DNA of 34,232 bases. Source: an uncultured Granulosicoccus sp. GTDB taxonomy: Bacteria; Pseudomonadota; Gammaproteobacteria; Granulosicoccales; Granulosicoccaceae. Positions within the stretch are counted from its first letter, which is position 1. The number at the start of each line of letters is the position of its first letter. The notes beneath the pieces are model-generated. The model searched no databases. It saw nothing but the letters and a program-made list of their open reading frames with translations, and had not been told where the DNA came from. Below, piece by piece: positions 12,689-24,625 of this stretch. Location: contig CALKLO010000033.1 of NCBI GenBank assembly GCA_937991945.1, positions 1 to 34,232 of the forward strand. The letters are read 5' to 3'. A program made the translations under genes and the position numbers.

Positions 12689-14098
12689 ATGTCAGCGAGT
12701 GACGTACTCAAGAACATCAAAGACAACGAAGTCAAATTCGTCGACTTTCGTTTTACAGACCCACGCGGTAAGGAACAACACACTGCTGTCCCAGCTTCCA
12801 TGTTTGAAGAAGACGTCTTCGAAGATGGCCAACCGTTTGACGGTTCGTCCATCGCGGGCTGGAAAGGCATCAACGCCTCTGACATGCTGTTAATGCCGGA
12901 TGCATCTACTGCCGTTTTAGATCCTTTCACCGAAGAAACAACACTCAACATCCGTTGTGACATCGTTGAGCCTGACACTATGGAAGGTTATGAGCGTGAT
13001 CCACGTTCAGTAGCACGACGCGCAGAAGCCTACCTGCAGTCCACGGGTATCGCAGATACAGCTTACTTCGGCCCAGAGCCTGAATTCTTCGTATTCGACG
13101 ACGTTCGTTGGTCTACGGAAATGCAGGGCATGAGCTATGCGATCAACTCTGAAGAAGCAGCTTGGAGCTCAAACAAGAAAATCGACGGCGGCAACACAGG
13201 ACATCGCCCTGGTGTTAAAGGCGGATACTTTCCTGTACCGCCTGTCGACTCTTTAAACGATCTGCGCGCCACTATGTGCATGGTGATGGAGCAAATGGGT
13301 GTCATACCTGAAGTTCACCACCACGAAGTAGGAACTGCTGGCCAATGCGAAATTGGTACTAAGTTCGACACACTCGTTAAGCGTGCTGATCAAACTCAGA
13401 TCCTTAAGTATGTTGTATTGAACGTTGCTCACCAGTACGGCAAGACAGCGACATTCATGCCTAAGCCAATCGTTGGCGACAACGGTAGCGGCATGCACGT
13501 TCACCAGTCTTTGTTTATGGACGGCAATAACATGTTCGCAGGTGAGCTCTATGGTGGCCTGTCTGAAACTGCACTTCACTACATTGGCGGCATCATCAAG
13601 CACTCACGTGCAATCAATGCTTTCGCTAACGCCTCTACTAATAGCTACAAGCGACTAGTACCTGGGTTTGAAGCTCCAGTCATGTTGGCCTACTCTGCTC
13701 GTAACCGTTCAGCGGCTATCCGAATCCCATACGTTGGCAACCCTAAGGGTCGTCGTGTTGAGGTTCGTTACCCTGATCCAACGGGCAACCCTTACCTGAC
13801 TTTCTCAGCTCTAATGATGGCAGGCCTCGACGGAATCCAGAACAAGATCCATCCTGGTGATGCGTCTGATAAAGATCTGTACGACCTGCCTCCAGAAGAA
13901 GCAGCGGGCATTCCACAGGTATGTTCTTCATTGGATCAAGCGCTAGAAGAGCTTGATGCAGATCGTGGCTTCCTAACAGCCGGTGGCGTTTTCACTGACG
14001 ATCAGATCAACGGCTACATTGATCTGAAGATGGAAGAAGTAACACGCATGCGCATGTCTACTCACCCTGTTGAGTTTGATATGTATTACAGCTGTTAA
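12689..14098 (+). CDS. glnA: Glutamine synthetase, type I (GSI-beta)
   Basis: Cytoplasmic dodecameric enzyme (469 aa) that makes glutamine from glutamate, ammonia and ATP. Landmarks: [40 protein letters not shown], the metal/ATP region [27 protein letters not shown], the [20 protein letters not shown] block and the adenylylation loop [10 protein letters not shown] with Tyr398, so activity is probably controlled by GlnE. The ATG at 12689 gives the standard length and has AGGAAA about 8 nt upstream; the longer frame starting at 12485 runs through the promoter and is rejected. The C-terminus EFDMYYSC is the sequence duplicated downstream at 20.65 and 21.81 kb. glnL/glnG, often next to glnA, are absent here. 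Confidence 0.98.
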
Positions 14099-14556: not shown

Positions 14557-15567
14557 TTAACTTTCGACTGGAAGACTGGTATTGAGATCGCGCAAATCTT
14601 CCGGCGATAACAAATAGACACCAGTACGATGAGCTAGCTCTCTAGCTGCTCTGGTGAAGCCATTGGGTGCAACCACCGCTGCAATATTGGCGTTAGCGTA
14701 AGCCATACCGGCATAAGCTTCTTGCACAGCCTTGTTGCCGACTGGCTTTCCATACATCTTGCATTGAACCGCTATTCTTGAGTCTCCCCTCTGAGCAATA
14801 ACGTCCACTCCCTGATCTCCTGATCCAGACGTGAGACGCGCACTCCAGCCGATGCTTTGCAACACTTCTGCACAAGCGGCTTCAAACTCCAGAGCATCTG
14901 TTACGCCGACAAATGGGCTTTGATACTCTCCCGTTGTGTTCAGCCTTGCAGCGCTTGGCAGGCCGCCAACGTCAGAGCGAATAACCGCCGTGACATGCTG
15001 CTCGGCCTCCTCACGAGTCAAATCCCTGCAGTCAAAGTCAATCGACTCAAGAAACCTCCGAACCTCCACGCGCCATTCGTTTAAATTGATTTTGCCATAT
15101 TCATCCACCCTGACTGTTGATCGCCAGTTCATGATTAGCGCATCCCTGTGCTCCTGAACGGCAGAAGTTAGTTCGTCTAATATCAATTGCCGCTTAGCAC
15201 GAACTCTCTTCGCTTGTGTTTTTCTGCTTGGCTTGAGCAGGGATGAAAACAGCGTTGCGATCCTACCCTTCGAGTTCGCATCCGAGTCTCGCGTTGCCAC
15301 TCCTGACCGATTACTCCTGTCGTACAACGATACCTGATGCGTACGAGCTTGACTTGGTCTGGTACGTTTTGTTCTCCAGACATAAAACAGATAAGTCGAA
15401 CCTGCCAAACCAATCAAGGTGACAGCACCAGAAGGCTCACTTTCCATATCCATGGAAAACAACGCTGATAACAAAGCCATTATCAGCGCCGCTAGCGTCA
15501 TCCACAACATGAACATCCAAAACCAAAACAACACTCGCTTGAGTGATCGCCAAAGAACTCTCATCAT
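14557..15567 (-). CDS. Membrane-anchored Mrr-type restriction endonuclease-like protein
   Basis: A 336-aa protein with two N-terminal membrane helices (about residues 10-36 and 48-65), a basic Arg/Lys/Ser-rich linker, a helical middle region and a C-terminal Mrr-cat nuclease domain (about 225-325). The PD-(D/E)xK core is visible: FEAACAEVLQSIGW, GSGDQGVDVIA (catalytic Asp), IAVQCKMYG (QxK), then VQEAYAGMAYANA and PNGFTRAARELA. The helix pair places the nuclease in the cytoplasm, tethered to the membrane. Mrr-type domains typically cut modified or foreign DNA, so defence is likely, but no methylase is nearby. A longer frame begins at a TTG (15606); the ATG at 15567 opens directly into the amphipathic basic start. 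It is the first gene inside the accessory region. Confidence 0.75.
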   Translation of the reverse strand: MMRVLWRSLKRVLFWFWMFMLWMTLAALIMALLSALFSMDMESEPSGAVTLIGLAGSTYLFYVWRTKRTRPSQARTHQVSLYDRSNRSGVATRDSDANSKGRIATLFSSLLKPSRKTQAKRVRAKRQLILDELTSAVQEHRDALIMNWRSTVRVDEYGKINLNEWRVEVRRFLESIDFDCRDLTREEAEQHVTAVIRSDVGGLPSAARLNTTGEYQSPFVGVTDALEFEAACAEVLQSIGWSARLTSGSGDQGVDVIAQRGDSRIAVQCKMYGKPVGNKAVQEAYAGMAYANANIAAVVAPNGFTRAARELAHRTGVYLLSPEDLRDLNTSLPVES

Positions 15568-15686
15568 GGTATTTTCTTGTGCGTCGTAAGCATGGAACGC
15601 GCACAAGCATACTTCAAACCATCAGCTTGTTGGTGATTCGATGAGCAAGATAACAGGAGGAATTGCAACTGACTAAATGAGTCAAT

Positions 15687-16623
15687 CTAATCGTTACACA
15701 ATTGGGTTACACGCGCATCAATATTTGCCATTTTTTCCTCGAATCGACGCTTTACCTCTGCCCTGCGCTCAGCAACATCATTCAGCACACCTGCAGCCTC
15801 CTTACTACTAGTTGATACCACAAGCCTATGAACCGAGCCGTGGCCTGAGGGGAAACATGTTGAACGCTCTGCATCACTTTAAACAGATTCTGGTTGTTCT
15901 CCAATTGAACTGAGATATATCGAGATCGGCAGCTGTTTAACACAAGACGCTCCATGCCATCATCTGCGTTGATCTTTAGAGCCTTGAGAGCGCCCCTAAA
16001 ACACTGTGAGCTCGGCTTGGCGTGTGTGGTCCATCCAGCGAAGGAAATAGATACGTCTGATCAACAGGAAATTGATACATCCAATGCTTTAGCTTTGCGT
16101 GTAAACGCGCTGTCATACTCACAGGTGTTCGAAGCTTGTTTTTTTTCTTTCCCCGCACCACTCTGATTTCTCCTTTGATCAGGCAAATTTCGGAGACCTT
16201 GAGTTGGCAGATCCCAGAGATACGGAATCCACAATCCAATGCAATTAAGCACTTATAGTGATTGTGCATAAAGCGCTTTTTAGCTCACAAGTGCGCCTCA
16301 TCCTCAGTCAAAGCACGCGACTTCAGAGGCGACACCGGCGGTTATCTGCTATGTTTCTTCCAATCAATAATGGGCACAGCATAACCACAATCTGCGACCC
16401 ATACCATCATGGTTCTAATTCGAGAAAGAAACACTCGAAACGTACCTGACGCGTACACATCACGCATCTCATCCACAAAATCATCAAACAGACTCTGATT
16501 TATTGAATGCACTGGCATTTTCGGATTTGAGTACAGCGCTGGTACGAACATACCCTTGCTATCACGGTTCAATCTTTCGCCAGTCAAATGATCCAAGACA
16601 AAGCCCTGAATTCTATGGCTCAT
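15687..16623 (-). pseudogene. Decayed tyrosine recombinase/integrase
   Basis: Reading leftward from 16623, one frame encodes a core-binding-like domain (IRTMMVWVADCGYAVPIIDW), then a TAA stop, then PPVSPLKSRALTEDEAHL, a TGA stop, and AKKRFMHNHYKCLIALDCGF-RIS with the catalytic Arg and the beta-hairpin Lys region (VRGKKKNKLRTPVSM). Past about 15980 the frame shifts to MERLVLNSCRSRYISVQL and QHVSPQATARF, which resemble the HxxR and GHxS boxes with the His replaced, and shifts again to a helical C-terminus ending at 15687. Full length would be about 310 aa, normal for a phage-type integrase. Two in-frame stops and at least two frameshifts make it inactive. It presumably once inserted this element at glnA. 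Confidence 0.7.
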
Positions 16624-16675: not shown

Positions 16676-17142
16676 TGACTCAAAAAACTGTAACAAGCGT
16701 CTTCTATGCTGATTACCCGTTTCCCATCGGAACCTTGTGCCTGCTTCTGTAAAGATTCCCTCTTCTTTTGGCAACAATGAACGCTTCATGCTCAGACTTA
16801 GTACCACAACCAACGCGTCGGTATTTTGCAGAAACCTTAATGGTGGCTGTGTAATTACCAGAGCTTGGGTCAGGCTTCAGAGCTATTCCACCGACCGAAA
16901 CAGTTGTAGCATTCTACTTTCTCAAGCCACTATTATCGGCACAAGTGCCCAACAAGGTGACGAATTAGTTCAAAGACTTACAAGTATAGATGGGGACAAG
17001 GCACGCAAACTGGGTATCCAATAGCGTCATTTTGGCTTCCCCAATTGGCTCCCAGAAGATCGGTGCATTCAACACCAAACAACTGAAAGCAAAGTACAAA
17101 AACGGCAATATGAAAGTGGTCACGATGACAGGATTCTTATAG
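16676..17142 (+). pseudogene. Fragments of an unrecognised gene
   Basis: Several short frames look coding but do not join. MTQKTVTSVFYADYPFPIG starts at an ATG preceded by AGGAAG and stops after 25 codons. A second frame (16737-17024) runs through NNERFMLRLSTTTNAS to KARKLGIQ. A third (16990-17142) gives ASPIGSQKIGAFNTKQLKAK and ends TMTGFL. The order and strand fit one gene broken by frameshifts, or small overlapping genes. I do not recognise a family. Confidence 0.25.
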
Positions 17143-17315
17143 CCTGAATCCTCAATAAAACACTATAACACTGCGGTGTACGGCAGCTTTACGTCAGTTG
17201 TTTCACTCAGGTAAAAAGAAGAGAACCTCATGATCACCAGTAGTAGTAATATCCATACAAGGAGGAGCAAAGATCAGACAAGAACATGACGGTTTTCCTT
17301 GATAACTAACAGACA
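17143..17315 (+). other. No supported gene between two decayed genes
   Basis: Short frames only. A purine-rich CAAGGAGGAGC at about 17261 looks like a ribosome site, but no sustained frame follows it. Confidence 0.4.
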
Positions 17316-18077
17316 ATGAACACTGAATCTCATACACGTTTGAACTATCAAAGCAATTGCCCGCCCACTAACACCTGATGTCAAAAAGCGGCTTCGAGAC
17401 TTGTGGGCAGCAAGTCAACCGGTACTCGATGAATATCGCTTAGCATTCACTGTAAACTTTACGCGGAAAGAAACTGGACGCCTCAGAGAGCACAATAGTG
17501 AATATCTCTCAGAGGCCCTCAAGACCATCAAAGGTATTTTCCGCGCTGACAATCCAAAAGATACCGTTGTGATCGCCGGAGAAACCGAAAGGTCGACGCC
17601 GGCGGGGTTAGCCCAGACCGTCCGAATGTCCACGCACATGGGTGGCTGCGACTAACGAAATCGGTATCAGTGTGCGAAATTCGGAAAAGTCTGAAGAACA
17701 CGAAAACTAGCAAGGTTGAAACCTCATAGGCTATTGTGTCAGAGACGAATATACCGCTAGACGCAAGGGTAGGAAATTTAGGAAGACTGTAGACACTGGT
17801 TGGCAAAAAATACCTCATCAAGCACTTCAAACGAACGCCCAATGGATTCACGTCACCTAATCGAATGATTTCCGCATCCAAAACACTAAATCAAGAACTA
17901 CATAGACTAGAAGCAACAACCATGCGATTTACCAAAGATTGAAACGCTTGTTTCGCCACGAATCGTACTTGGCAAAGCACGGCACGGCACGGCATGGGGG
18001 AATTTGAATATTGGCAGGAAGCCTACATCGAATATGATCCAGACATCTTGGACCAAAATGATCTACGTCATCATTAA
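17316..18077 (+). pseudogene. Decayed gene resembling an HUH-type replication initiator
   Basis: Successive frames on the plus strand form one broken protein. First comes ARPLTPDVKKRLRDLWAAS, FTVNFTRKETGRLREHN and DTVVIAGETERSTPAGG. After a shift comes PDRPNVHAHGWLRLTKS, which has the His-x-His arrangement of HUH nucleases. After another shift comes IGYCVRDEYTARRKGRK, with a Tyr-x-x-basic motif like that of rolling-circle initiators. Later pieces are RLKRLFRHESYLAKHG and, from 17994, GEFEYWQEAYIEYDPDILDQ, ending at 18077. At least three frameshifts plus stops make it non-functional. The motif order (beta strand, HxH, Tyr-helix) suggests a Rep of a small plasmid or filamentous phage. This is an inference from motifs only. 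Confidence 0.35.
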
Positions 18078-18194: not shown

Positions 18195-18779
18195 ATGAAG
18201 AAATTCCGTACTTTCAAGAGCGTTTATAAGCCACAGGATACAATATCGTCGTTTGCTAAATTAAACGTCGGATATGTAATTTTGGTGGGGTTGGCGGTAA
18301 TTGTTGCAGTCATTTTATTGACGAGACAAAGTATTCAGAAACCTTCATCAAAGCAGTCAGAAGGTCACTCACAGCGAGTAACCGTTATCGACGGTGATAC
18401 CATTGACGCGGGTGGCGATCGTTTTAGACTTCATGGAATAGATGCCCCTGAAAAATCACAGCCTTGTACCAAAGAAAACGAAACTACGTTTGATTGCGGT
18501 AAAGCAGCAACTGAGTATCTGGAATACTTGACGTTGGGCGAGAACGTAGTGTGTGAGAGCACCGGAAAAGATCGGTGGGGTCGTTACATTGGAAAATGCA
18601 GCACAAATACAATTAGCGACTTGGGTGGGCAGATGGTGCGAAGTGGGTGGGCAATTGCTTACACTGAGTATTCAACCGACTATGTCGCTGATCAGCAGAT
18701 TGCCAAGGAAAGCCTACTGGGTATGTGGGCGACGAATTTTATAACTCCGCGAGAGTGGCGGAAAAACCGTAGAAAATAG
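18195..18779 (+). CDS. Membrane-anchored thermonuclease-like (SNase) protein
   Basis: A 194-aa protein with a basic N-terminus, a single membrane helix (about residues 25-44, VGYVILVGLAVIVAVILL) and an SNase domain (about 60-190). The staphylococcal-nuclease active site is complete: VIDGDTI (Asp), FRLHGIDAPEKS (Arg, Asp, Glu) and KDRWGRYIGKC (Arg), followed by the C-terminal GMWATNFITPREWR. Positive charges before the helix predict N-in/C-out, so the nuclease should face the periplasm; four Cys in the domain allow disulfides there. It opens a four-gene run with gaps or overlaps of a few bases. A role in degrading incoming DNA is possible but unproven. Confidence 0.85.
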   Translation: MKKFRTFKSVYKPQDTISSFAKLNVGYVILVGLAVIVAVILLTRQSIQKPSSKQSEGHSQRVTVIDGDTIDAGGDRFRLHGIDAPEKSQPCTKENETTFDCGKAATEYLEYLTLGENVVCESTGKDRWGRYIGKCSTNTISDLGGQMVRSGWAIAYTEYSTDYVADQQIAKESLLGMWATNFITPREWRKNRRK

Positions 18780-18784
18780 TAGCT

Positions 18785-19228
18785 ATGGCCGACGACAATG
18801 GAAAGACAAAAATGCAAAGTACACCACAAGCGTCTGTGCCTACTCAGATACCACTATCCGCAGGAACATCAATGGATATTGCATGGCTTCCAGAAGCGGA
18901 CCGAAAAGCATTGTTGATCGACTATACGAAAGGGATGCTCGATCTTGGGGTGAAAGCGCAAGAAATGGGCATCGATGCAACAGCATTGAAAACAACCTTA
19001 GATAATTTAACTGACACTACCCGACAAGCTGCTGATAGCGGGAACGCTGTAACAGTAAGCCACACTCAAACATCTTCTGTAGGCCGGACTGAAGTGATCA
19101 TGGGTAATACCCAGCAGGCGCAAAGTGGCAAGTTGTCCAAATCGCAAACAGGCGAAAAAGATATGACCATCTTTTACGTCTTCGGAGGTATTGTTGCTTT
19201 GATAGTCATCGTTGCTCTCATGGGCTGA
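18785..19228 (+). CDS. Tail-anchored protein of unknown function (147 aa)
   Basis: Second gene of the SNase operon, starting 5 bp after it. The N-terminal 40 residues are polar and Gln/Pro/Thr-rich, followed by a predicted helical stretch (LPEADRKALLIDYTKGMLDL to DNLTDTTRQAA), a Ser/Thr/Gln-rich linker and a C-terminal membrane helix (FYVFGGIVALIVIVALMG) with almost no residues after it. That topology leaves the main domain in the cytoplasm. No known family is recognised. Confidence 0.6.
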   Translation: MADDNGKTKMQSTPQASVPTQIPLSAGTSMDIAWLPEADRKALLIDYTKGMLDLGVKAQEMGIDATALKTTLDNLTDTTRQAADSGNAVTVSHTQTSSVGRTEVIMGNTQQAQSGKLSKSQTGEKDMTIFYVFGGIVALIVIVALMG

Positions 19229-19229
19229 C

Positions 19230-19529
19230 GTGAAATCTATTAGAGCACACATCTATTCGAGCACAGATCACCAGTTGAAACTCAAAGAGCTTGAAAATAT
19301 CTTGCTGCGGAAACCATTAACAGAGTTGGACAAGCTTAAGTTGCAGAACATATCTGATTGTATAAAAGAGTATGTTTCAAGAACTAGGTTAGTTAGCCCT
19401 ACTGGCACAATCATCAGCCTTAGCCAGAATTTTGAACTCTCTACCACCAATGTGGTAATTGTATTGGAGATACCTGAGAAAACAGATATTTTTACGAGAT
19501 TAATCCGCAGACTTCGTGGTGATATTTAA
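19230..19529 (+). CDS. Small protein of unknown function (about 99 aa)
   Basis: Third gene of the SNase operon. The frame is open from 19212 (TTG); I chose the GTG at 19230, one base after the previous stop, giving MKSIRAHIYSSTDHQLKLKE. It shows a charged helical N-terminal half (LKELENILLRKPLTELDKLK) and a beta-rich second half (NVVIVLEIPEKTDIFTRLIR) with a basic end; no membrane helix. The stop overlaps the next ATG (TAATG), a strong sign of coupled translation. No family is recognised. Confidence 0.55.
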   Translation: MKSIRAHIYSSTDHQLKLKELENILLRKPLTELDKLKLQNISDCIKEYVSRTRLVSPTGTIISLSQNFELSTTNVVIVLEIPEKTDIFTRLIRRLRGDI

Positions 19530-20338
19530 TGGTCAGATATCGTTCAAGAGGGCGCTCAAATAGTCGTCGCAGTTCTTACGGATATGAGCGAGCACAACAA
19601 CATATACGTGAGGCCGATCAGCTTTCGGTAGAACTCGGAGGCACAGACAAAGATGTGAAAGAGTATTTTTTTTCGCTGAACGAGAATCAGCTCTCTTCGA
19701 TATTAAATGAGTATTCAGCTACTTACGGAAAATCGGCGGGTGAATACGCAAAAAAGACGATGAACAAATGGCAAGGCGGACAAGTACATATGAGCGGATT
19801 GGTGGCTGGACGCTTATTTTCACTTCTGCCAAAGCGAATGCCACTTGATGCAAAATTAAGACTGACAGAGAGCCTATGGAAACATGTTGCTCCTAAATCT
19901 CAACATAAGATTTACGTAAATCCTGAAACACCAATTGAAATTGCAGTCTCTGAAGTCTCAAAGCTACTTCAAAAAGAGGTCGTTTCATATAAAATTCCTC
20001 AGCATATGGAACGTCGATTTAGTTGGTTAGCTCAAGGCGATGTTGGAGTGAAGCAACAACTTCTAAATCACATACGAGCAAAAGAAAAAGAACTGGCAGC
20101 CAGATCACTATCCACAAATCTACCTCTACTTTCCACGTATTTGAAAAACAATGAAGATTTGTCCTCTAAAACGGTTTCCCATACACTGACAGTTGGTAAC
20201 AATGAAGTAGTCGTAGTAGTAACAAACAAGGTCGATGGCGTAACCCAGACAGCTCCTATAGGAAACACAACAGATTACTGGAGCTGGTTCTGGATTATTG
20301 GTGTCATAACAGTGATACTCTTCAGTCTTAGTGTATAA
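19529..20338 (+). CDS. Tail-anchored protein of unknown function (269 aa)
   Basis: Fourth gene of the SNase operon. It starts with a short Arg/Ser-rich segment (RYRSRGRSNSRRSSYGYERA), then a helical domain (about residues 25-130: HIREADQLSVELGGTDKDVK, YFFSLNENQLSSILNEY, GLVAGRLFSLLPKRMPLDAK), a second helical region (about 140-195), a beta-rich stretch (TVGNNEVVVVVTNKVDG) and a C-terminal membrane helix (YWSWFWIIGVITVILFSLSV). It is therefore predicted to be cytoplasmic and held to the membrane by its tail, like the 147-aa protein. The family is not recognised. Its ATG overlaps the preceding stop by one base. Confidence 0.65.
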   Translation: MVRYRSRGRSNSRRSSYGYERAQQHIREADQLSVELGGTDKDVKEYFFSLNENQLSSILNEYSATYGKSAGEYAKKTMNKWQGGQVHMSGLVAGRLFSLLPKRMPLDAKLRLTESLWKHVAPKSQHKIYVNPETPIEIAVSEVSKLLQKEVVSYKIPQHMERRFSWLAQGDVGVKQQLLNHIRAKEKELAARSLSTNLPLLSTYLKNNEDLSSKTVSHTLTVGNNEVVVVVTNKVDGVTQTAPIGNTTDYWSWFWIIGVITVILFSLSV

Positions 20339-20653: not shown

Positions 20654-20729
20654 GATGTGTACTACAGTTGTTAGTACTAATTCTCTTTAGAGAGCAAAGG
20701 CGGCGCCGCAAGGCGCTGCCTTTTTTTTG
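20654..20729 (+). repeat. glnA 3'-end repeat, copy 2 (attachment-site-like)
   Basis: Begins at codons that read DVYYSC followed by a stop (GATGTGTACTACAGTTGTTAG), a partly synonymous version of the glnA end DMYYSC. It continues through TTCTCTTTAGAGAG into a terminator hairpin identical to that of glnA and a run of eight T. There is no glnA sequence upstream of it, so it is a detached 3' end. It separates the Mrr/SNase segment from the cyclase segment. Confidence 0.8.
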
Positions 20730-20916
20730 CCCAGTAATATAGCCAATCAGCATTATTGATTTCCCATAATTGCTTTCCATATACTTCGATGTCGTGGCAC
20801 ACTGAAATCACGTGAGGCTATAGAACGTGTGACTCCCAGTTGAGCATGTGAAGCGCAAAGGCCCGTTGGGAACACTCTGTTCAGCCTTATTCCTAATGAA
20901 TGAGGGAGCAAAGAGT

Positions 20917-21893: not shown

Positions 21894-22070
21894 CCTTGAA
21901 AGCACTGCCAACACCACTTGTTCCGTCAGGTTGCTGACGCCTATCTGCAATACAGGCAACAGGTAACTAGACCCCCAATTTCCACATTTTCTGCACATTC
22001 GTTGACTATGGTTCATGAGTACTAAAGGATTTTTTCGTACCTCACGATCTTGCAATCAAGGAACACACTA
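21894..22070. other. Spacer before the first YHYH lipoprotein gene
   Basis: No gene is supported. A small hairpin CGTCAG-GTTG-CTGACG lies at about 21924-21939. An AAGGA ribosome site precedes the next gene. Confidence 0.4.
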
Positions 22071-23213
22071 ATGAAATCTAGCTTTCAGCTAGCCTTAGTC
22101 AGCAGTTTTATCTGCTGCTTATCACTAAGCGCTTGTAGTTCTAATTCAACAGATACGACAGATACAACAGATACAACAGATACAACAGATACAACAGATA
22201 CAACAGATACAACGGATACAACGGATACAACGGATACAACGGATACAACGGATACAACGGATACAACAGATACAACAGATACAACAGATACAACGGATAC
22301 CACAGGCACAACAACAGGATTGAATCCGGCGTTATTTATATCTGGTGCTCTAGCATCAGACCCAGTTATTGTTGATTGCACGTTAAGCGATGGCAGTGAA
22401 TCCACCTGCTACGAAATTACATCTGTTGGCGCTCCCGCGGGCACCGCTGTAGGACCATTTTGCCCTACCAGCATAAACTCAGACGCTGCGGACGTTGGCA
22501 TCTGGCAAAGTGGCGATGGCATCGTCTACGATGTGAACGGAGACTTTATTGTCAACTTGCCTAACATTTATGGAGACGACAATTGGCAGCTGTATGACGC
22601 CACAACGGGCCTAGTGTATGTAACCGACACACAAATAGCCTGTGCGGCAGCAGCACAACCGAATGTTGAAGAAGAGTATCAAAACCACTGTGTAGAATGC
22701 TCTTTGGACTATGTCGACGGCGGTATTCCAGCTACCTATCTCATACCGACCACGCCGATGCTCGCCGATGCGCCCGGTGCAATTGGTACAGAGGTAGGTA
22801 TAGCGCTCAACGGCGGCACACTAGCAGGCCCCGCACCAGTAGCGGATATCCTAGCTAACTACACAATCGCAGCATTTGATGATTGCGGTGGCCACATTAA
22901 TCTCAACGACGGCTACCACTACCACGCAGCTACAGGTTGTACCGAAGTAGCGGCTCAAGACGATGGGCACTCTGCCATGCTTGGATACGCAATGGACGGT
23001 TATGGCGTTTATGGCATGCTGGATACAGACGGTAATGAGTCTACGGATCTTGACGACTGCCGCGGCACCACCGATGACGTTCGTGGATACCACTACCATG
23101 CAGCCAGTGCTGGGGAAAATATGTTCATTGGTTGCTTCAGCGGATTGACAGAGGGTGCCAATGAAGGCGGACAAGGCGGCGGACCCGGTGGTCCTGGCGG
23201 ACCTCCAGAGTAG
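22071..23213 (+). CDS. YHYH-domain lipoprotein with Asp-Thr-Thr repeat
   Basis: A 380-aa lipoprotein: signal peptide with lipobox SLSAC (lipidated Cys at residue about 22), then a low-complexity linker of 17 Asp-Thr-Thr units, then a secreted domain with many Cys and two YHYH-type motifs (DGYHYHAATG and RGYHYHAASAG) and a Gly/Pro-rich C-terminus. The histidine motifs suggest metal binding; the family's function is not established. The ATG at 22071 has AAGGA 8 nt upstream; an in-frame ATG at 22050 is less suitable. It is followed by a small secreted protein and a second YHYH lipoprotein, suggesting a cell-surface set. Confidence 0.85.
   Translation: MKSSFQLALVSSFICCLSLSACSSNSTDTTDTTDTTDTTDTTDTTDTTDTTDTTDTTDTTDTTDTTDTTDTTDTTDTTGTTTGLNPALFISGALASDPVIVDCTLSDGSESTCYEITSVGAPAGTAVGPFCPTSINSDAADVGIWQSGDGIVYDVNGDFIVNLPNIYGDDNWQLYDATTGLVYVTDTQIACAAAAQPNVEEEYQNHCVECSLDYVDGGIPATYLIPTTPMLADAPGAIGTEVGIALNGGTLAGPAPVADILANYTIAAFDDCGGHINLNDGYHYHAATGCTEVAAQDDGHSAMLGYAMDGYGVYGMLDTDGNESTDLDDCRGTTDDVRGYHYHAASAGENMFIGCFSGLTEGANEGGQGGGPGGPGGPPE
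22152..22304 (+). repeat. 9-bp in-frame minisatellite (GATACAACA/G, 17 units)
   Basis: Seventeen tandem 9-bp units, each encoding Asp-Thr-Thr. Most are GATACAACA or GATACAACG, the ACA and ACG forms falling in blocks, which suggests duplication of several units at a time. Because the unit is a multiple of three, gain or loss of units changes only the linker length of the lipoprotein. Confidence 0.95.
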
Positions 23214-23536: not shown

Positions 23537-24625
23537 ATGCATAAGATTCAAAATATTGTTGTAACAGCCTTACTTTTTACCGGACTCGCCGCGTGTTCGA
23601 GCAGCTCTAACGACACTACCGATACAAGTACTGAGACAGAGACAGAGACAGAAACCGGCACTGAGACCACTGGCAATTTCGATAGCAGCATGTTCGGTGA
23701 CGCTTTAATAAGCAATGAAGAAGTGAGCTGTACGTTAGAAAACGGCAGTACAACAACGTGCTATGAGATAACTTTTTCAGCCAACGGTGTCGGTGATTCA
23801 GAGGGCAACGGAACCGTTGGACCATTCTGCCCTGAGTCAATAACCACACCAAGAAATGAAGGTGGGCTAGGTTCTTATGATGGAGCAACCACTCCTGGAT
23901 TTCAGCCTATGATGGATGCAGCGATAGCGATGGATGCCGATGGCTATGACATCGTTGACGATGCTACTGGCAATATTTATTTCGATGATCTTACCGATAG
24001 GAATGTGGACGCGAGCTTTAGCTATTGCTTATCACCTCCTTTTGACAGCACGCTAGAACTCACCTATTTGGTACCTGTAGTACCTGAAGTTCGCACAGAG
24101 CCTTTTCAGGTTGGAACCATTGACAGTGTTGGCTTCGGCGTTAACGGTGTCCCCATCAAAGGCAATCCACCTAGCGTAACAACTGTCGAAGCAGGCATTG
24201 GTGGTACTGGAAGTGGAAACATTCCATCACTTGATGTATGCGGCGGCCACCCTGACCCATCTGGCTACTACCATTGGCATAACGTGCCTCAAGCAGTCAA
24301 TACGCTATTGGCGTCTGAGAACTACAATTACACTGAGCAGTACGGCTTAGAATGCTCTAACCCTAACATCGCTTTCGATGAGCCAGCCAGCTTTTCAGGG
24401 ATGGCAAAAGATGGGTTTCCTATCTACGGCGCATTCGATTCAGTGGACTCTATGAATACCACACCTGGAAATGTTGCCACAGTTGACGCGTGCAACGGGC
24501 ATAACCACATAACCGATGAATTTCCAAATGGCGTTTATCACTACCACGCTCTGGAATCCACGTTTCCAAATATTCCAGCTTGCTTGATCGGCAGCTTTGT
24601 CAGCAGAGACGTTACTGTCCGTTAG
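23537..24625 (+). CDS. YHYH-domain lipoprotein, second copy
   Basis: A 362-aa lipoprotein with lipobox GLAAC, a Thr/Glu-rich linker (TETETETETGTETTG) and a YHYH-type secreted domain: CGGHPDPSGYYHWHNVP, MAKDGFPIYGAFDS, CNGHNHITDEFPNGVYHYHA and a final Cys motif (IPACLIGSF). It resembles the gene 1.4 kb upstream in layout and in the CTLxxGSxxxCYEI and VGPFCPxSI blocks, so the pair arose by duplication. The linkers evolved separately (Asp-Thr-Thr versus Thr-Glu). Confidence 0.85.
   Translation: MHKIQNIVVTALLFTGLAACSSSSNDTTDTSTETETETETGTETTGNFDSSMFGDALISNEEVSCTLENGSTTTCYEITFSANGVGDSEGNGTVGPFCPESITTPRNEGGLGSYDGATTPGFQPMMDAAIAMDADGYDIVDDATGNIYFDDLTDRNVDASFSYCLSPPFDSTLELTYLVPVVPEVRTEPFQVGTIDSVGFGVNGVPIKGNPPSVTTVEAGIGGTGSGNIPSLDVCGGHPDPSGYYHWHNVPQAVNTLLASENYNYTEQYGLECSNPNIAFDEPASFSGMAKDGFPIYGAFDSVDSMNTTPGNVATVDACNGHNHITDEFPNGVYHYHALESTFPNIPACLIGSFVSRDVTVR

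Follow-up and report, generated by a model that had tools for sequence, protein, structure and literature searches.

The window analysed here is a stretch of 34,232 nucleotides from an uncultured Granulosicoccus sp. (contig CALKLO010000033.1), and it makes up an entire contig of a draft genome. It carries a four-gene cassette, here called S-A-B-C, that joins a staphylococcal nuclease (SNase) gene to three genes for partner proteins. All four are open, intact, head-to-tail reading frames on the plus strand: S (18195..18779; 194 amino acids, with an N-terminal membrane anchor), A (18785..19228; 147 amino acids, tail-anchored), B (19230..19529; 99 amino acids, without a membrane helix) and C (19529..20338; 269 amino acids, tail-anchored). 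An initial annotation, made from the sequence alone, had described them as a single unit. This description is borne out, with intergenic gaps of 5 bp (S-A), 1 bp (A-B) and -1 bp (B-C), and with B read from a GTG start at 19230.

The conserved core of the cassette is A-B-C, not S. The trio occurs in the same order at 16 loci: one in the window, three on viral contigs, one on a conjugative Vibrio plasmid, and 11 in further genomes drawn from four phyla. Intergenic gaps across the 16 loci range from -11 to 55 bp. With 15 further loci keeping the order seen in the window, the arrangement is beyond chance. The first relative of C came from a conjugative plasmid of Vibrio harveyi (39.9% identity over 74%), where counterparts of A and B sit 5' of C, and a distant relative of C lies on a Thioalkalivibrio plasmid. 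Alignment queries then gave the three viral contigs and 13 genome loci, among them a locus filed under uncultured Leucothrix (L022) whose C gene is identical to that of the window. Where the region before C is present, the A profile matches at 16 of 16 loci and the B profile at 15 of 16, five of the loci being seeds that match by construction. The B counterpart in locus L032 is an open reading frame assigned by position only, those elsewhere rest on position and profile, and pairwise comparison of B proteins between loci gave no significant match. Contig ends truncate loci L029 and L017, and L015 consists of C alone. Pairwise identities co-vary between cassette proteins (S-C, r 0.41, P 0.015, six loci; A-C, r 0.60, P 1e-4, 13 loci), which common operon descent alone would also give.

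The distribution of A-B-C is rare and patchy. A single-protein query of C found none besides the query genome in 94 relatives, and C was likewise found in none besides the query genome among 397 sampled genomes of the window's phylum. A sample of 391 genomes from the L028 phylum yielded no match, and 368 genomes of the class yielded a single partial one. The set thus does not behave as a conserved housekeeping locus. Plasmid records searched with five different C queries returned only the Vibrio and Thioalkalivibrio plasmids, an A query only the Vibrio plasmid, and a B query none. Viral contigs gave no match to single-protein queries of C and A and were reached with alignments only, three later scans returning the same three contigs in total.

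The membrane helices described here are assigned from hydropathy only. On this basis, window A and C each have one helix that reaches the last residue (A, residues 129-147, 19169..19225; C, residues 251-269, 20279..20335; both plus strand), B has none, and three of the four products (S, A, and C) carry a membrane helix, as had been proposed. Across the 16 loci, A always ends in a membrane helix and C does so in 15, with L034 narrowly under the threshold. Only 0-3 residues follow the best helix window in A and C, the exception being the A protein of L031, with nine. The most conserved stretch of A is the motif GRTEVIMGNT (residues 100-109, 19082..19111, plus strand), in which G100, T102, E103, and G107 are invariant in all 15 aligned proteins. 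The A gene is short in L031 and L032, where the GRTE[VI]IMGNT motif and the membrane helix are kept.

The predicted model of A comprises two helices, a beta hairpin carrying the GRTE motif, and the C-terminal anchor, and was too weak for a fold search (mean predicted local distance difference test score, pLDDT, 69.8; predicted template modelling score, pTM, 0.36). The model of C, whose family alignment covers 16 proteins, has a helical body, a beta hairpin, and the C-terminal membrane helix (mean pLDDT 82.8). Foldseek found no match to it at E < 0.001 in PDB or BFVD, the best VIA Z was 4.6, and A and C profiles matched PDB at chance level only. MgtE, COPI, and others were rejected as fold relatives of C, all with Z < 5. 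The families of window A, B, and C remain unrecognised, as first described, with nothing above chance in Pfam, NCBIfam, PADLOC, and PHROG, and nothing at E 0.1 in PADLOC-DB 2.0.0. Stray Pfam matches to single relatives of C went down to E 0.0037, and the proteins of five relatives gave one chance-level match in PADLOC (PbeC, 0.043, to the C protein of L030).

S is a clear SNase, matching PF00565 at E 1.1e-14 with 55.2 bits, above the curated cut-off of 21. The active-site residues of thermonucleases align in S at D68, R78, D83, E86, and R130, which we take to have the corresponding catalytic roles, and the active-site motif DGDT (D66-T69, 18390..18401, plus strand) is invariant in 10 of 10 aligned SNases. 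The active site is therefore complete, as had been claimed, by an indirect mapping in which S was aligned to the L032 SNase and the latter to solved thermonucleases; window S itself had no relative among solved structures at E 1e-5. S has a single N-terminal hydrophobic helix (best window residues 25-43, 18267..18323, plus strand; mean hydropathy 2.88), and such a helix starts all nine S proteins that adjoin the trio. Four cysteines at near-equal spacing are common to the six upstream-type S proteins; the other three adjoining S proteins are without them. The N-terminal anchor, together with cysteines that would fit an oxidising compartment, suggests that the nuclease domain lies outside the cytoplasm and that S faces the periplasm. 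S also gives a weak match, via its SNase domain, to the PADLOC model C3a212 'SNc+LTD' (E 3.3e-9). This model is no marker of S-A-B-C, because it is matched too by six control proteins from regions mostly picked around trio-less SNase genes.

An SNase gene directly adjoins A-B-C in nine of the 16 loci. On the same strand as the trio, it lies upstream in six (the window, L019, L023, L026, L027, and L030) and downstream in two (L032 and L034); in the ninth, L028, it converges on the trio, and the predicted reading frames there overlap by 150 bp. Two more loci have an SNase at a distance, 2.5 kb downstream of the trio in L018 and 7.4 kb upstream in L025, with a HerA gene in between. The co-occurrence with SNase genes that the initial annotation had proposed as a check is thus largely found, with four loci lacking it. 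In L021, SNase status is not judgeable because only 414 bases precede A; on this phage contig, a gene for a PLD-domain protein adjoins the trio in convergent orientation (2084-2614). The start of this protein looks lipoprotein-like by eye, and it is possibly another envelope nuclease replacing the SNase. A cysteine-rich tail (YHRxxCRYL...CSVC) accompanies the SNase genes near the trio in L018 (11313-12035) and L028 (8646-9796); it is fused to the SNase in L018 and forms a separate neighbouring reading frame in L028.

The 13 trio genomes hold one to seven SNase matches each. An SNase lies within 2 kb of the trio in 8 of 13 genomes, a count that takes in the window as the discovery case (7 of 12 without it), against 0.05 expected under random placement. 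In a tree of 35 SNases, the SNases of L028 and L018 are on the same side of a 99/99 branch as the downstream two. It is probable that the SNase has been recruited to the trio at least twice, because the upstream six and the downstream two fall on opposite sides of this branch. Several end branches of the tree are long, including those of L034, L032, and L028, so that the downstream rows are long-branched, and the part relied on is the 99/99 split. Repeated recruitment of this kind would be strong evidence for a functional link between SNase and trio.

Mobile and defence genes are common neighbours of the trio, but they are not universal; part of the loci show a mobile or defence-island context. 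In L018, L019, L021, and L031, the trio has phage genes nearby (head, portal, terminase, or replication). Of these loci, only L031 is an independent phage context, since the other three come from a viral collection. A PD-T4-5 gene lies near the trio on the conjugative plasmid (L014). The neighbours in L024 include a type II methyltransferase, an NgoBV-type nuclease, and a TIR candidate, and those in L025 include HerA and a SIR2 match, which we infer to be the reading frame before HerA. For comparison, a neighbour set of 139 genes from 13 loci was obtained from 196 reading frames by removing 37 on viral contigs, five of the window, seven adjoining SNases, and eight distal on the plasmid; one SNase reading frame (L028 917-1321) was retained. 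The control set consisted of 139 genes drawn at random from 192 reading frames in 16 regions of trio genomes, 13 of which had been chosen around other SNase matches, after a further region (L037) had been dropped for lying on the same contig as the L025 trio. Resolvases made up 5 of 139 neighbours and integrases 3 of 139, against at most one of each among the 139 controls, and proteins named as resolvases occur once each in L014, L019, L028, L030, and L034. The neighbour genes matched 170 PADLOC families and the controls, mostly housekeeping genes with some defence matches, 44. This enrichment is only suggestive, because many families matching one gene inflate such counts.

Several further observations concern these neighbourhoods. 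A large protein on the phage contig L018 (2808-5756) matches the PADLOC Ppl model, with a weaker Ppl match in L027 (14958-16826). RecC-like and RecB-like genes lie directly downstream of the cassette in L026 (4380-11217; by eye), and Pfam matches across the neighbour set include the RecC and UvrD families.

In the window, the cassette probably lies within an integrated element, in line with its initial placement in such an element beside an Mrr nuclease. Similarity of the DNA to relatives ends at 14088-14089, at the end of glnA, in G023 and G024, whose contigs continue; in G015 it reaches 14152, which is the end of that contig. Similarity returns at 20897 within a cyclase gene; in G023, a complete genome, this gene is far from glnA, and in G015 the two are on different contigs. 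An empty site could not be demonstrated, as glnA and the cyclase gene are not neighbours in the relatives. Between these limits, on the minus strand, lie a gene for an Mrr-domain nuclease (14557..15606; Pfam Mrr_cat, 2e-23; hydrophobic N-terminus by eye) and a tyrosine integrase fragment (15976..16269; Phage_integrase, 7.5e-9). The Mrr-domain gene shares the variable region with the cassette, and membership in the system is not claimed for it. The stretch between the integrase fragments and the cassette (16737-17881) has a decayed look and no convincing genes by eye, the one reading frame scanned having no Pfam match. About 360 bp 3' of C, a terminator-like hairpin with a T run (20696..20723, plus strand; 12 pairs, 8 GC) is a possible end of the operon, in a region with four terminator-like sites against 2.7 in shuffles. 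A simple promoter scan gave 11 sites against 7.1 from shuffles, and no promoter is therefore claimed. Further along, the window holds a YHYH-domain reading frame with a long D-T-T repeat run near its start (22050-23213) and another repeat-bearing reading frame (23537-24625; by eye).

Comparison with known systems sets S-A-B-C apart from each. Well-known members of the PF00565 family are single secreted enzymes. S is a member by its sequence and active-site residues, but it is anchored and encoded in an operon with A, B, and C. Prophage superinfection-exclusion proteins such as HK97 gp15 or SieA are small membrane proteins that act at DNA entry and are not known to include a nuclease. S-A-B-C would resemble them in its small membrane proteins and in the entry step, and would differ in having a nuclease. 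A closer likeness is to SNIPE, a membrane-bound anti-phage nuclease that spares self DNA by acting at the site of injection (PMC13190303). In both, one N-terminal helix anchors the nuclease in the inner membrane (for S, by hydropathy), and action on DNA during entry is known for SNIPE and a proposal for S-A-B-C. SNIPE combines DUF4041 and GIY-YIG domains in a single protein whose nuclease is cytoplasmic (PMC13190303), whereas the nuclease of S-A-B-C is an SNase, probably periplasmic, with three separate partners. The two are set apart by domain matches, since S, A, B, and C gave no GIY-YIG or DUF4041 match in Pfam. No SNase with such partners was described in the literature searched, a scope that leaves aside preprints and most subscription papers, and the available portion of the main text of PMC13092281 contains no SNase.

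Taken together, S-A-B-C may be a mobile, membrane-assembled nuclease system that attacks foreign DNA as it crosses the envelope, by superinfection exclusion or as a block to conjugative DNA; we give this reading a probability of about 0.5. A and C would lie on the cytoplasmic face, anchored by their C-terminal helices, with B as a small soluble partner, and the three would form a complex that senses, or docks at, the site of DNA entry. S would share this membrane, its nuclease domain projecting into the periplasm, where it would cut incoming DNA. Mobile spread, phage carriage, and nuclease recruitment are the grounds for proposing that the substrate is incoming DNA. The formation of a complex, the topology, the trigger, and the targeting of DNA at entry are the inferred parts, and the exact membrane topology has lower odds than the reading as a whole, falling short of even. 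It is less likely than not that the cassette represents a new immune class, in which a nuclease is kept outside the cytoplasm, self DNA is spared by compartment, and a cytoplasm-facing, tail-anchored complex of three undescribed families positions or licenses the nuclease at DNA entry sites.

A number of observations weigh against attack on incoming DNA by the complete set. The SNase is not obligatory for A-B-C, since L014, L024, L031, and L033 have none in the flanks read. SNases are common in any case, occurring in 13 of 13 trio genomes and 8 of 14 control genomes. No single clade unites the six upstream SNases: only those of the window, L023, and L026 group (80/98), three changes are needed, and ten unassociated SNases lie on the same side of the tree. 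A and C appear to face the cytoplasm and S the periplasm, and with so few residues beyond the A and C helices, any contact with S would run through the helices themselves. The control for defence genes is weak, as one methyltransferase alone accounts for 55 PADLOC families and the control genes also held IetAS, GajB-like, and type IV matches. Lastly, the neighbours in L029 and L033 look ordinary by eye. The membrane-associated system against incoming DNA that was first proposed is thus partly supported, by the SNase association and the non-housekeeping spread, while the optional SNase counts against it.

The alternative that survives best, although unlikely, is that A-B-C by itself suffices for defence or exclusion, for instance by blocking the entry of DNA or by damaging the membrane upon infection, with the SNase as an optional add-on that clears DNA stalled in the periplasm. 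The trio keeps its order in the 4 of 16 loci without a nearby SNase. The tree of C genes has no starred branch and was therefore not used for counting gains and losses of S; in it, the C protein of Agitococcus branches among relatives that bear an SNase (fork 94/94, not starred), a placement to be expected if S can be lost. Against this, recruitment of an SNase on either side of the trio implies that it adds something important, and the PLD-domain gene of L021 points the same way.

It is improbable that the cassette is a suicide system, in which the trio would detect infection on the cytoplasmic side and breach the membrane, so that SNase stored in the periplasm reaches the cell's own DNA. This would account for presumed sensors that face the cytoplasm and for a nuclease kept outside it, but no pore is suggested by the C model or the fold searches, and a single helix is predicted in each of A and C. 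It is very improbable that the cassette serves a (pro)phage or plasmid in some role other than defence, for instance in DNA delivery, establishment, or lysis, and has spread as cargo. Such a role would fit the four loci near phage head, portal, terminase, or primase genes, three of them from the viral collection, and the one locus on a conjugative plasmid. However, two C queries (from the window and L021) found no match in 50,697 phage records, and among the other 11 genome loci only L031 is shown to have phage packaging genes next to the trio, the rest having been viewed by eye. Least probable of all is envelope housekeeping or DNA scavenging, with the SNase degrading external DNA for nutrition or biofilm turnover: trio-less SNase genes are indeed common, in the same genomes too, but the trio is scarce and scattered among close relatives and across the samples from two phyla, and the window region has no counterpart in the relatives compared.

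The observation of a conserved gene set therefore stands, on stronger ground than the initial annotation had given it, and its interpretation as a system that attacks foreign DNA crossing the envelope is plausible. If the interpretation is true, the partners would make up three new families of fixed gene order that can be searched for in genomes. Bacteria would then distinguish foreign DNA from their own by place alone, on the periplasmic side of the membrane, and would do so by means of proteins that the libraries searched have missed. S-A-B-C would then be an unrelated parallel to SNIPE.
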